In this document: piece by piece, positions 19,474-61,898 of the stretch
Numbering within the stretch: position 1 is the stretch's first letter
Layout of the letters: each line of letters begins with the position of its first letter
Assembly: GCA_039555135.1 (NCBI GenBank)
Contig: CP114179.1
Coordinates: forward strand, 4,402,001-4,466,000
Reading direction: 5' to 3'
Length of the DNA stretch: 64,000 bases
Origin: Phycisphaeraceae bacterium D3-23
Lineage (GTDB): Bacteria > Planctomycetota > Phycisphaerae > Phycisphaerales > Phycisphaeraceae
The notes under the pieces: generated by a model
The model's input: the letters and a program-made list of their open reading frames with translations, nothing else
What the model was told of the DNA's origin: nothing
Database searches by the model: none
Position numbers and translations under genes: made by a program

Positions 19474-19546
19474 AGCGGGCGAAGAGACTCGAACTCTCAA
19501 CATTCAGCTTGGAAGGCTGACGCTCTACCAATTGAGCTACGCCCGC
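19474..19546 (-). tRNA. tRNA-Gly (anticodon UCC)
   Basis: The minus strand folds as a complete cloverleaf: acceptor GCGGGCG/CGCCCGC, D-stem GCTC/GAGC with the AATTGGTA loop, anticodon stem TCAGC/GCTGA around CTTCCAA, and T-arm GAGAG-TTCGAGT-CTCTT. The anticodon is TCC and the discriminator base is U73, as expected for glycine. CCA is not encoded. Confidence 0.96.
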
Positions 19547-58300: not shown

Positions 58301-58702
58301 ATGCCTCAAGCCGATCCACGACCGACGCGTACCATCGTGCCGATCCGAGTGCGCTACTGCGAGTGTGACCCGATGCGGGTCGCGCATCATGCGTCATACC
58401 CGGTGTGGATGGAGATCGCGCGGACAGAACTGATGCGTGAGCAGGGGGCCTGCTACCGCGACTGCGAGTCGGCAGGCGTTTTCTTCGTCGTCGCACGCAT
58501 GAATCTGAGGTACCGCAAGCCGGCGAAGTACGACGACACGATCGAGGTCGTGGTGATATGCCTGCCGTGCGCCGGGGTGAAGGTCGAGCACCGGTACGAG
58601 ATCAAGCGCGGCGACGAACTGCTCGCGACGGCGGAGACGACCCTGGTCTGTGTTGATGCGACGGGCAAGGCGGTGCCGGTGCCTTCGGGGCTGCTGCCGT
58701 GA
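58301..58702 (+). CDS. Acyl-CoA thioesterase (YbgC/4-hydroxybenzoyl-CoA thioesterase-like hotdog fold)
   Basis: This is a hotdog-fold thioesterase of about 133 residues, the usual size, hydrolysing acyl-CoA or acyl-ACP. The signature is RVRYCECDPMRVAHHASYPVWMEIARTELMRE, matching VRYxExDxxGxVxHxxYxxxxExAR with the catalytic Asp. The end PAKYDDTIEV and EIKRGDELLATAETTLVCVD are also typical. The ATG at 58301 is used because the upstream part of the frame (from 58091) covers the intergenic hairpin. The physiological acyl group is not known. It starts 55 bases after the terminator-like hairpin. Confidence 0.87.
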   Translation: MPQADPRPTRTIVPIRVRYCECDPMRVAHHASYPVWMEIARTELMREQGACYRDCESAGVFFVVARMNLRYRKPAKYDDTIEVVVICLPCAGVKVEHRYEIKRGDELLATAETTLVCVDATGKAVPVPSGLLP

Positions 58703-58963
58703 AGACTAGAGTTGACGGGTTGGCAATAGCTGCGTCGTTGCGCTACGCAGTTGTATTGCGCTAATCCATACAGATGGCTGATTGGATCTGCCCAGCGCTC
58801 CACCGTCCCAGCCGTTACACAACGCACCGAGCCGATAGTTTCGGGCTCTGCATGGGTGGCGTGCGCGAAGTCCGGCCCATAACCCGCCGACTCCCTGACT
58901 TACCGGCCGACACTTCCGTGCCGCCGGCGCGGCCGCGATATCCGTGCGGCCCGGAGGTCAGGC
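58703..58963. other. Intergenic region
   Basis: No gene is seen in these 261 bases. A small imperfect palindrome (CTGCGT/ACGCAG) lies about 30 bases after the thioesterase stop, and CGGAGG just before 58964 serves as the next Shine-Dalgarno. Confidence 0.4.
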
Positions 58964-59851
58964 ATGTCAGCTTCATTGGGTTGGTTCATCGGGACGGCGG
59001 TCATGCTGCCGTTGATGTGGTGGGCGGGGGTCCGCGTCGGCCGGGTCACGGACCCGACTCGGCGCGGCGTGTACATTGCGGGGGTCATGGGCTTGCTGTT
59101 CCTGTGGTGCTGGCTGATCCGAAACCCTTCGGTCGCGGTGGAGGTCTTGCCGCTGTCGATGCTTGCGCGGATCGAGGGCATCGGTGCCGCGCCGCTGTTT
59201 ATCTTCGTCGTCGGCGTCGCGTGGGCGCTGGGCCACCTCAAACGCCAACGCGCGATCGTCGCTGTTGCGCTCGTGATGGGCGCGGGCTACTTCGTGCAGG
59301 GCGGCTGGTGGATGCTGCAGCAGACCCCCGCCGGCGCGTTCGCCATGGAGAGCCACGGCCCGTCGATGGATGTCCTCCAGAGCCAGGACTACTCCTGCGT
59401 CCCCGCCGCGTGCGCGACGTCGCTCCGGCTGCTCGGCGTCGAGACCGACGAGGGCGAGATGGCCCGACTCACCGAGACCCGCCCCGGCAGCGGCGCCACG
59501 CTCATCCGCGCGATGCACGGCCTCGAAAAACGTCTCGCCCACGAAGGCCTCCAGCCACAGCTCATCGAGCCCAGCTACGACCAACTCATGGCCCTGCCCA
59601 CACCCGTACTCACGCCGCTGCAGTACGAGGCCGCCCAACTCCACATGGTGTCGATCTTGAACGTCATCCCCGAGGGCGTCTATGTCGCCGACCCGGCCGT
59701 GGGCATTGAGTTCATCCCCCGCGCCCGCTTCGAGGAGATCTACCGCAAACAGGCCATCGCCTTCGAGTACACCGAACAGACACCCCCCGCAGCAGTCGTG
59801 CAGGCACGCACCTCATGGCTTCGTACCTCGGCCCACCCGACCGGCTGGTAG
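58964..59851 (+). CDS. Membrane-anchored C39-like peptidase domain protein
   Basis: This protein of 295 residues has an N-terminal half of four hydrophobic segments (WFIGTAVMLPLMWWAGV, GVYIAGVMGLLFLWCWLI, GAAPLFIFVVGVAWALG, AIVAVALVMGAGYF) and a C-terminal domain like a C39-type papain-fold peptidase. QSQDYSCVPAACATSLRLLG carries the candidate catalytic Cys near residue 145, LHMVSILNV the His near 227, and VADPAVGIEFIPRARFEEIY the Asp. C39 domains cut double-Gly leaders in bacteriocin exporters, but many stand-alone members have no known substrate; no leader peptide or ABC exporter partner is adjacent. GGAGG precedes the start. Confidence 0.8.
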   Translation: MSASLGWFIGTAVMLPLMWWAGVRVGRVTDPTRRGVYIAGVMGLLFLWCWLIRNPSVAVEVLPLSMLARIEGIGAAPLFIFVVGVAWALGHLKRQRAIVAVALVMGAGYFVQGGWWMLQQTPAGAFAMESHGPSMDVLQSQDYSCVPAACATSLRLLGVETDEGEMARLTETRPGSGATLIRAMHGLEKRLAHEGLQPQLIEPSYDQLMALPTPVLTPLQYEAAQLHMVSILNVIPEGVYVADPAVGIEFIPRARFEEIYRKQAIAFEYTEQTPPAAVVQARTSWLRTSAHPTGW

Positions 59852-59861
59852 CGGATCGGGG

Positions 59862-59889
59862 TTGACAACGCCCAAAGCCATGACATACT
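59862..59889 (+). promoter_or_regulatory. Promoter for the aromatic leader peptide and DAHP synthase
   Basis: A perfect -35 TTGACA (59862-59867) is followed after 16 bases by CATACT (59884-59889). The predicted start of transcription, about 7 bases further on, is at or next to the leader ATG at 59897. The leader may therefore be translated from a leaderless transcript. Confidence 0.6.
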
Positions 59890-59896
59890 TGCCCTG

Positions 59897-59971
59897 ATGC
59901 ATCGCCCCGACAGCTTCTATTTTGACGCGTTCTGGTTTGCCCGGCTACAAGCCGAGTCAGGGACCGTCTAA
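59897..59971 (+). CDS. Aromatic amino acid leader peptide of DAHP synthase (putative)
   Basis: This is a 24-codon ORF whose product contains six aromatic residues within eight positions: FYFDAFWF at residues 7-14, covering Phe, Tyr and Trp. Such a composition is typical of attenuation leader peptides, where ribosome stalling at aromatic codons decides between an antiterminator and a terminator. It lies between a TTGACA promoter and a GGGG-T7 terminator-like signal, directly ahead of the enzyme for the first step of aromatic synthesis. There is no convincing Shine-Dalgarno, and the predicted transcription start coincides with the ATG. That this peptide controls attenuation is inference. Confidence 0.7.
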   Translation: MHRPDSFYFDAFWFARLQAESGTV

Positions 59972-60029
59972 CACGCTGCCAACCCCAGCCGACGAATTCG
60001 CCCTGACGCCCACGCGCCGGGGTTTTTTT
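59942..60029 (+). terminator. Putative attenuator: alternative hairpins ending in GGGG-T7
   Basis: CGGCT (59942-59946), at the end of the leader ORF, can pair with AGCCG at 59950-59954 or with the second AGCCG at 59987-59991. The latter overlaps the 5' arm of a later stem in which AACCCC (59981-59986) pairs with GGGGTT (60019-60024), followed by T7 (60023-60029). The last stem is only six pairs plus a short extension, so folding should be confirmed. Confidence 0.55.
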
Positions 60030-60108
60030 ATTGACCTTCGAAACGACCCCCACACACCCGACACCACACCTCAGCCCGACCCCGATCGGCCGACCCCGGA
60101 GCCCCGCC

Positions 60109-61155
60109 ATGATTATCGTGATGCAAGCCGACGCCACCGACGAACAGGTCCAGGGCGTCTCCGACCTGATTACCGAGATGGGGCTCACCCCCCAGCCGAT
60201 CCAGGGCAGCGACCTCGTCGTCGTCGCGGTCATCGGCGACGACCGGCTCAAGGACGGCTCGAAGCTCGAGACCGCGCCGGGCGTCGACCGCGTCATGCGC
60301 GTGATGTCGCCTTACAAAATGGCGGCCAAGGAGGCCACCGGCGGCGAGCGCACGCAGGTCCGCGTCGGAAAAGGCGACGGCTGTGTGTTCGGCGGGACCC
60401 AGGTGCCGGTCATCAGCGGGCCCTGCAGCGTCGAAGGCGAGGCGGAGATCCTTTACGCCGCCGAGCAGGTGAAGTCGGCAGGGGCACACGCGCTACGGGG
60501 CGGGGCGTTTAAGCCGCGCACCAACCCCTATGCGTTCCAGGGCCACGGCGAGGACGGGCTCAAGATGCTCGCCAATGCACGCGCCGCGACCGGGCTCCCG
60601 ATCGTCACCGAGGTCATCACGCCCGGCGACGTCGACCTCGTCGCCGAGTACGCCGACATGCTCCAGATCGGCACCCGCAACGCGCAGAACTTCAAGCTGC
60701 TCGAGGCCTGCGGCAAGGCGGGTAAGCCGATCCTGTACAAGCGTGGGATGTCGATGAACATCGACGAGTACCTCCAGGCGGCCGACTATATCCTCGCAGC
60801 GGGCAACGCGGACCTCGTGTTGTGCGAGCGCGGCATCCGTACGTTCGAGAACCACTCGCGCAACACGCTGTCGCTCTCGGTCGTGCCGGAGATCAAGCGG
60901 CGCAGCCACCTGCCGATCGTCATCGACCCCAGCCATGGCACGGGCCACGCCTACCTCGTGCCCGACATGGCCCGCGCCGCGATCGCCGCGGGCTGCGACG
61001 GTCTCGCGATCGAAAGCCACCCCGACCCCAAGCATGCATTCACCGACGGTGCGCAGTCGGTGACGCCCGAGGTGCTGGCAGAACTCATGCGTTCGCTCGC
61101 ACGCGTCGCCGAGGCGGTGGATCGGACGTGCCTGCCGTTGGCAAAAGTTGTCTAA
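60109..61155 (+). CDS. aroF: 3-deoxy-7-phosphoheptulonate synthase (DAHP synthase, type I with N-terminal regulatory-like domain)
   Basis: This enzyme condenses phosphoenolpyruvate and erythrose 4-phosphate to DAHP, the entry into aromatic biosynthesis. At 348 residues it has an N-terminal ferredoxin-like domain (MIIVMQADATDEQVQGVSDLI) as in Bacillus/Thermotoga-type enzymes. The barrel then has VISGPCSVEGE (metal Cys), ALRGGAFKPRTNPYAFQG, TEVITPGDVDLVAEYADMLQIGTRNAQNF, PILYKRGM, IDPSHGTGH (metal His) and AIESHPDPKHAFTDG. The upstream aromatic-rich leader suggests transcription attenuation, in addition to any feedback on the enzyme. Its stop overlaps the convergent hypothetical gene. Confidence 0.93.
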   Translation: MIIVMQADATDEQVQGVSDLITEMGLTPQPIQGSDLVVVAVIGDDRLKDGSKLETAPGVDRVMRVMSPYKMAAKEATGGERTQVRVGKGDGCVFGGTQVPVISGPCSVEGEAEILYAAEQVKSAGAHALRGGAFKPRTNPYAFQGHGEDGLKMLANARAATGLPIVTEVITPGDVDLVAEYADMLQIGTRNAQNFKLLEACGKAGKPILYKRGMSMNIDEYLQAADYILAAGNADLVLCERGIRTFENHSRNTLSLSVVPEIKRRSHLPIVIDPSHGTGHAYLVPDMARAAIAAGCDGLAIESHPDPKHAFTDGAQSVTPEVLAELMRSLARVAEAVDRTCLPLAKVV

Positions 61156-61898
61156 TGCAGATCGTACCAACCGCCCTGAACGTCTTCATCAGGCGGCAGG
61201 GTCGTGAGGACAAAGATAAACGGCGGGAACCTTGATTCGTGTTCCGTAACGCGTTTGGCGATGTCTTGGTACCGCTCGTCCTTGGCAAGCCCGCGCTGGC
61301 GCAATGCGATGTATGCCACGCCGATCACCGCCACGCCAGCCGTTGCAAACCAGAGCCAGGGCATTAGAGCAGCTAGCACCCAACTGACCACGCCCATTAT
61401 GACGACAAGGGTGAACAGTAAACACCCCGATGTGCAGCCATCGAATCGACTCCCGTAGTAGACCAGGTCTTCACGTCCGACAAACTGTTCCAAATGCGTG
61501 GCGCACTGTTCATGGTCTAACTCGTAAAAACGTAGCGCATACCGTCCCGGCTCGACAGAGAACTCATCTTGCTTGGTTGTGATTTGAGGATTACAGCTGC
61601 CATAATCTTCTAGCCCACCCGCAATAAGCTGCCCCGATTGTGATTCGATCAGAAAAACCCGGTCCAGCGTCTGATAGAGACCTAGCTGTTCGGCGTCGGG
61701 TCGCTCATTGACGTATATGTCAGATGGGTAACCGCCGTCGCTCGCGGTGTTGATAAAAAAAAGCCGACCCGCCTCGGACTCAGCTTCAAAGAAATCTATG
61801 TTGTCACCGTACTGGGTTGCGACATCCGGATAAATCCGCCCCGGGTCCCATACACCAACCATGGCCACGTCCGTCCCGAGTTCGATACGCTTGAGCAT
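61152..61898 (-). CDS. Hypothetical protein with C-terminal membrane hairpin
   Basis: This protein of about 248 residues is of unknown family. The N-terminal part is soluble and contains strands and acidic stretches (DVAMVGVWDPGRIYPDVATQYGD, GRYALRFYELDHEQCATHLEQFVGREDLVYYGSRFDGCTSGC). Two adjacent membrane helices follow (LLFTLVVIMGVVSWVLAALMPWLWFATAGVAVIGVAYIAL), then a charged tail ending in GGWYDLH. It looks like a cytoplasmic domain held to the membrane by a hairpin. The codon pattern is less GC-skewed than its neighbours, which may hint at transfer. The start at 61898 is used; the frame is open to 61952. Confidence 0.7.
   Translation of the reverse strand: MLKRIELGTDVAMVGVWDPGRIYPDVATQYGDNIDFFEAESEAGRLFFINTASDGGYPSDIYVNERPDAEQLGLYQTLDRVFLIESQSGQLIAGGLEDYGSCNPQITTKQDEFSVEPGRYALRFYELDHEQCATHLEQFVGREDLVYYGSRFDGCTSGCLLFTLVVIMGVVSWVLAALMPWLWFATAGVAVIGVAYIALRQRGLAKDERYQDIAKRVTEHESRFPPFIFVLTTLPPDEDVQGGWYDLH

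Follow-up and report, generated by a model that had tools for sequence, protein, structure and literature searches.

Most work on ribosome-mediated attenuation concerns Proteobacteria and Actinobacteria. In enterobacteria, attenuators such as the trpL, pheL and pheST leaders consist of a short leader ORF with runs of regulatory codons, an antiterminator and an intrinsic terminator, followed by a biosynthetic gene. The aroF enzyme of C. glutamicum is presumably another type of DAHP synthase than the one considered here. This C. glutamicum gene is preceded by a predicted leader (cg1129) containing Phe-Tyr-Phe, for which attenuation has been proposed (PMC4046766). Leaders of trp, leuS, ilvB, leuA and cys have been described in Actinobacteria, in a paper in which the words aroF and aroG are absent and which saw no conserved terminator hairpins for the mycobacterial cys leaders (PMC1262725). 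Leaderless attenuating ORFs have been reported in Actinobacteria (PMC4633059), and an actinobacterial ilvBNC leader without ribosome binding site and mycobacterial polycysteine leaderless ORFs are likewise reported. In view of these actinobacterial and C. glutamicum reports, the kind of element described here is already known. Such leaders were not found described for Planctomycetota in the open-access literature, the coverage of which leaves out most subscription journals, and within the reach of that search three points are new: the lineage, the combination of all three aromatic amino acids with an apparently leaderless start, and the range of genes in the set.

The element lies in a 64,000-nt stretch of DNA (the window) from Phycisphaeraceae bacterium D3-23, the genome of which comprises 4.62 Mb in one contig. 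A first-pass annotation of the window had pointed to a 24-codon ORF with FYFDAFWF, a TTGACA-N16-CATACT promoter, CGGCT with AGCCG partners and GGGG-T7 upstream of aroF, and all of these are found in the sequence at that site (Table 1). The AroF protein carries the domains PF00793 and PF18152 (N-terminal ferredoxin-like) and belongs to the families NF006421 and TIGR01361; its closest solved structure is 1rzm/3pg9, which we take to be the Thermotoga DAHP synthase, and its closest named relative, labelled Phycisphaerae bacterium in agreement with the lineage given in the first-pass annotation, is 92% identical. The gene upstream of the promoter (58964-59851) gives a weak match to Peptidase_C39 (E 2e-7). 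Rfam covariance models, T-box included, gave no match at E up to 1 in 58500-61500, and the sole Rfam match at gathering score in the window is a tRNA gene at 19474-19546 on the minus strand.

Table 1. Predicted and observed features of the aroF locus (window coordinates)
Feature	Position	Strand	Remarks
Promoter	59862-59889	+	-35 TTGACA 59862-59867, N16, -10 CATACT 59884-59889
Leader ORF MHRPDSFYFDAFWFARLQAESGTV	59897-59971	+	24 codons plus stop; start 7 nt past the -10 box
Regulatory codons FYFDAFWF	59915-59938	+	TTC TAT TTT GAC GCG TTC TGG TTT
Small hairpin CGGCT-ACA-AGCCG, possible 1:2 hairpin	59942-59954	+	Within the leader ORF
Putative antiterminator strand (strand 2), GTCAGGG	59956-59962	+	Last leader codons; covariation of the homologous helix; masking folds
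Leader stop codon	59969-59971	+	Ends leader ORF 59897-59971
Second AGCCG	inside 59983-59994	+	Present in the window sequence
Strand 3, CCCTGAC	60001-60007	+	Predicted partner of strand 2 (antiterminator) or part of the terminator
Predicted terminator	60001-60029	+	Hairpin 60001-60022 ending in GGGG, then T7 60023-60029; fold and covariation of the homologous stem
aroF, DAHP synthase, 348 aa	60109-61155	+	ATG at 60109; gene thought to be controlled

Like the trpL, pheL and pheST leaders, this locus combines a leader ORF bearing a codon run, a predicted antiterminator and terminator, and a biosynthetic gene downstream. Unlike them, it mixes Phe, Tyr and Trp codons, it precedes a DAHP synthase gene, and its ORF is placed at or near the predicted 5' end of the transcript. 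With the C. glutamicum aroF leader it shares a Phe-Tyr-Phe leader peptide ahead of a DAHP synthase gene, whereas that leader belongs to another phylum and has, as described, a shorter aromatic run (PMC4046766); the comparison is one of peptides. The likeness to the actinobacterial leaderless ORFs is that a regulatory leader would be translated without a ribosome binding site; the phylum, the genes and the amino acids differ. For mycobacterial cys leaders no conserved terminator hairpins were seen (PMC1262725), in contrast to the covarying terminator and antiterminator of the aroF leaders.

Apart from this promoter, no sigma-70-like site was found in 59700-60200 (shuffled mean 0.0), and no Shine-Dalgarno sequence is seen by eye in the window leader. 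Since the leader ATG follows so closely on the -10 box, the mRNA is probably leaderless. The same arrangement is found in relatives: in 52 of 66 leaders, 6-10 nt separate the end of the best promoter from the leader ATG, and a promoter at 5-9 nt from the ATG is present in 63.6% of leaders vs 7.8% of 167 control ATGs.

Conservation of the leader was assessed by scanning for ORFs with an aromatic run, defined loosely as at least four of eight residues F/W/Y or strictly as at least five of eight. AroF was matched in 181 genomes, with a close AroF in 44 of the 51 genomes of the window's family, and the upstream regions covered were those of the genomes among the 181 to which loci were assigned, and of 80 more. 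Of 165 non-redundant regions upstream of aroF, 75 hold such an ORF under the strict rule, whereas reverse complements give 2 of 165 and Markov sequences 2.8 of 165 on average; the loose rule gave 86 of 165, with 14 in reverse complements and a Markov mean of 17.8. Among the 40 non-redundant regions of the family, 34 satisfy the loose rule and 32 the strict one. This comparison of related aroF upstream regions, which had been proposed along with the first reading, bears out the leader ORF and its aromatic codons in most family relatives. Across leaders, it is the aromatic codons and the RNA-pairing end that are kept, and the remainder varies.

The six family regions that fail the scan (L006, L028, L083, L086, L186 and L190) count against the attenuator. 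A tRNA gene occupies the place of the leader in L028, L083 and L186. The leader of L190 (genome G046) looks diverged, since the leader model matches directly before its aroF (E 3e-8). In L006 (G016, of the same genus), whose AroF is 79% identical to that of the window, the upstream region is without visible leader or terminator, which suggests recent loss or a rearranged 5' region. By group, the strict rule was satisfied in 5/5 "f3-like" loci (a name given in this analysis), 9/10 in f10 and 10/18 in f8. It was also satisfied in 9/14 among loci L052-L066 (labelled as planctomycetes of some kind in 12 cases, as a bacterium in one and as Chloroflexi in one) and in 10/10 among L072-L081, labelled mostly Kiritimatiellota or Lentisphaeraceae. 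It was nearly never satisfied in several other families of the class (f14 1/19, f19 0/10, f18 0/8), which likewise counts against the attenuator, and in neither of L068-L069. A contig labelled Helicobacter cetorum, with an isolate name referring to a sulphur cave, has this AroF type (L069); the label is doubtful.

The structures proposed downstream of the codon run were examined in 67 leaders, 18 of 85 candidate ORFs having been set aside for lack of a scanned terminator, as probable chance ORFs or for another architecture; hairpins were assigned by hand in L031, L033, L131 and L172, which the scan had missed, and L032 and L084 were trimmed. A fold scan placed a terminator between leader ORF and gene in 71 of the 85 candidates. 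The window terminator hairpin folds at -10.9 kcal/mol; its stem has mismatches, and a simple terminator scan does not list it. With a z of -0.29, the window leader does not stand out in fold energy, which is counted against an attenuator, folding of the window alone being uninformative. Covariation was sought in alignment A1, made of 32 of the 39 family/order leaders; the seven with other spacing (L017, L019, L046, L050, L051, L087 and L088) were excluded. Its terminator stem is paired in 93.4% of cells, and 6 of the 9 pairs show changes on both sides (8 cells vs 1.8 shuffled). Columns 71-80, in the last leader codons, pair with columns 129-138, in the 5' strand of the terminator, in 87.3% of cells. 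Both sides have changed at 7 of the 10 pairs of this helix (14 cells vs a shuffled mean of 4.0), and sliding it by 1 to 3 columns reduces pairing to at most 42.8%; the shuffles do not remove relatedness, and the slides keep it. Both helices thus covary, in answer to the check that the first-pass annotation had suggested for the hairpins.

That annotation had also listed CGGCT with two AGCCG partners. All three motifs are present, but pairing of CGGCT with the second AGCCG was rejected as antiterminator because this AGCCG is not kept in A1; the antiterminator supported by the aligned sequences is strand 2 with strand 3. As strand 3 is shared with the terminator, the two helices are mutually exclusive. 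The possible in-frame 1:2 (pause) hairpin CGGC/GCCG is paired in 69.5% of cells of the 32 leaders without covariation, a difference from enterobacterial leaders that counts against the attenuator.

The pairing was also examined by recoding. When leader ends were rewritten with synonymous codons, all but two of the 39 family/order leaders (37 of 39; Wilcoxon p 1e-10) paired more weakly, and the native pairing lies beyond the synonymous 5% level in 19 of these 39 and in 25 of 67 overall; the window leader taken alone is borderline (0.063), again a point against. In 58 of 67 leaders, pairing with the leader's own terminator strand is stronger than the mean over the corresponding strands of other species. 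The distance from leader stop to terminator is 25-35 nt in 59 of 67 leaders (median 30).

Leader conservation, the match between codon type and pathway, terminator and antiterminator covariation, spacing and promoter position are read from the sequence. Together they make it very probable that a ribosome-mediated transcription attenuator controls aroF, as the first reading had proposed and as conservation of the leader in the family and covariation of both helices support; from there we infer the transcription start, translation, stalling and amino acid response as follows. Transcription would begin at the leader ATG or only a few bases away from it, and the ribosome would load on a nearly leaderless mRNA. 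If charged Phe, Tyr or Trp tRNA were short, the ribosome would stall in the FYFDAFWF run and leave strand 2 free to pair with strand 3, so that no terminator would form and aroF would be transcribed. With all three amino acids plentiful, it would reach the stop codon and cover strand 2; the terminator and its T7 would then form, and transcription would stop before aroF.

This scheme was followed in masking folds, in which the ribosome is assumed to cover 12 nt beyond the A site, and which are equilibrium estimates with the order of synthesis outside the model. A ribosome placed at the stop codon gives a terminator probability above 0.8 in 67/67 leaders. One placed at the best stalling codon lowers this probability by more than 0.3 in 44/67, and in the other 23 the fall is 0.3 or less, with no clear switch; with the ribosome at the last aromatic codon, the probability is below 0.5 in only 17/67. 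Both results are counted against the attenuator. In the window the probability is 0.99 for a ribosome at the stop codon, 0.03 for one at the last aromatic codon and 0.19 for one at the first. It is also 0.03 without ribosome, and the model thus predicts read-through of a window leader that is not translated. The order of synthesis should favour the antiterminator.

Similar leaders occur at other amino acid genes, and codon type fits pathway in four gene sets (Phe/Tyr/Trp with aroF, Leu with leuA, Ile with cimA, and Trp with some trpE); the host genome has the aroF and leuA versions. In a scan for residue runs, F/W/Y runs precede aroF in 37/45 regions vs 0/66 regions of trpE, pheA, cimA and leuA, Ile runs precede cimA in 12/17 vs 0/94 elsewhere, Leu runs leuA in 9/10 vs 8/101, and Trp runs trpE in 6/22 vs 2/89. 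The loci scanned were 22 of 25 for trpE (L193-L217, with L218-L222 excluded), 17 of 21 for pheA, 17 of 19 for cimA and 10 of 11 for leuA. The scan has some noise: 3 of the 17 reverse complements of cimA regions show Ile runs, and Ser and Pro runs are scattered over several sets. A model built from aroF leaders (R1; its 32 source sequences match it by construction) also picked up elements before citramalate synthase genes (TIGR00977) with Ile-rich leaders such as MSHAAAIIIGIAIQTSHR; among 10 matches away from aroF that were read, 6 precede cimA-like genes. The off-target matches G041:C6 (E 4e-6) and G017:C218 (E 9e-5) resemble ordinary terminators that lack a leader run, as do the others read, at E above 0.001. 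Ile-rich leaders with terminators were seen before citramalate synthase of relatives in L254-L256, L258-L262, L265, L266, L268 and L270. The host leuA (TIGR00973), outside the window (G000:C1 near 3416247), has a Leu-rich leader MHRDLLLTGDLASGLLGLLLIHPAGQG and a terminator at L273:1248-1331. Many leaders of cimA and leuA have their stop codon inside the predicted antiterminator strand. Trp-rich leaders precede trpE in L194, L195, L201, L203, L209 and L211 (L207 in another scan), and the scans gave no Trp leader for the host trpE (L206). No aromatic run was detected before pheA in 17 regions, nor in 21 when 700 nt before the PDT domain were taken with guessed gene starts, nor before pheS in 20 regions. 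The second DAHP synthase gene of the host (L001, TIGR00034) is without aromatic leader, and the third PF00793 match of this genome (L003) is presumably KdsA.

Some features of the leaders would also suit an arrest peptide like TnaC, in which the exit tunnel senses the free aromatic amino acid and not uncharged tRNA, and a stall near the end of the leader favours termination. A W-F pair is common in family leaders, encoded as TGG TTT in 29/29 leaders that have it, and the stop codon is placed where a stalled ribosome would cover strand 2. However, the aromatic residues interchange, W-F is missing from many leaders of L052-L066 and L072-L081, and the same design with Leu, Ile or Trp precedes leuA, cimA and trpE, which argues for the reading of codons, so that an arrest peptide appears improbable. 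Slightly less probable still is that the ORF encodes a small functional protein with a terminator of its own, aroF being transcribed by read-through or from another promoter. The ORF and its start codon are indeed conserved, but this conservation is limited to the aromatic codons and the RNA-pairing end, the leader end is shaped by pairing beyond its synonymous versions, the peptide is without Pfam match, and 59700-60200 holds no second sigma-70-like promoter. As for aromatic-rich ORFs and hairpins arising upstream of genes by accident, the ordinary fold energy and the 14 to 18 of 165 regions expected by chance at the loose threshold would agree with chance, which is contradicted by the counts at the strict threshold, by the covariation of both helices and by conservation in relatives, and can hardly be maintained.

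Codon choice in the leaders differs from that of the genes. In up to 35 family/order aroF leaders, Phe is encoded by 107 TTT and 51 TTC, where the corresponding aroF genes have 21 and 163, and Tyr by 32 TAT and 18 TAC, vs 27 and 182. Of the 245 other leader codons that precede the last aromatic one, 188 have G or C in the third position. In 11 of 12 cimA leaders (the one with a GTG start being excluded), Ile is encoded by 32 ATT and 23 ATC, vs 21 and 208 in cimA genes. CTT and CTA make up 26 of 62 Leu codons in nine leuA leaders vs 13 of 320 in the genes, and TTG is rarer in these leaders (1 vs 53). From these counts, most regulatory codons are disfavoured synonyms, as holds for most of those for Phe, Tyr and Ile. 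Such codons may sharpen stalling; alternatively, they may keep the RNA unpaired.

Altogether, attenuation appears to operate in Planctomycetota and in genomes labelled Kiritimatiellota or Lentisphaerota, both where the aromatic pathway begins and at genes for other amino acids in the same relatives, apparently from leaderless transcripts. The mechanism is classical, and the lineage, the leaderless start and the multi-gene set are the points of interest. The element offers a codon-based route to amino acid regulation in little-studied phyla, and allows ribosome-polymerase coupling to be tested in the absence of a conserved pause hairpin. Tentatively, and with a little less than even confidence, we propose a Phycisphaerae-related set of leaderless attenuators (aroF, leuA, cimA, some trpE and perhaps ilvB and hisG), in which immediate ribosome loading at a 5'-terminal AUG would replace the pause hairpin by which enterobacteria keep ribosome and polymerase in step, and in which the aroF leader would act as a Phe/Tyr/Trp OR gate of disfavoured codons.

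For ilvB, 12 of 17 loci were scanned (five below the family cut-off being excluded), with a left flank of 1500 bases assumed. Val/Ile/Leu runs were found in 5 of the 12, host genome included, vs 1 of 12 reverse complements, and Val runs alone in 4 of 12 on both strands. The host ilvB (L294, G000:C1, before 1294157) is preceded by a candidate Val/Ile/Leu leader, MRPLRSLNALDHNAVIAALVLVS, and a similar one is present in L295. His-rich leaders (HHHH, HHHVH) were seen in 2 of 15 hisG loci, L314 and L315, from two genomes of family f2.
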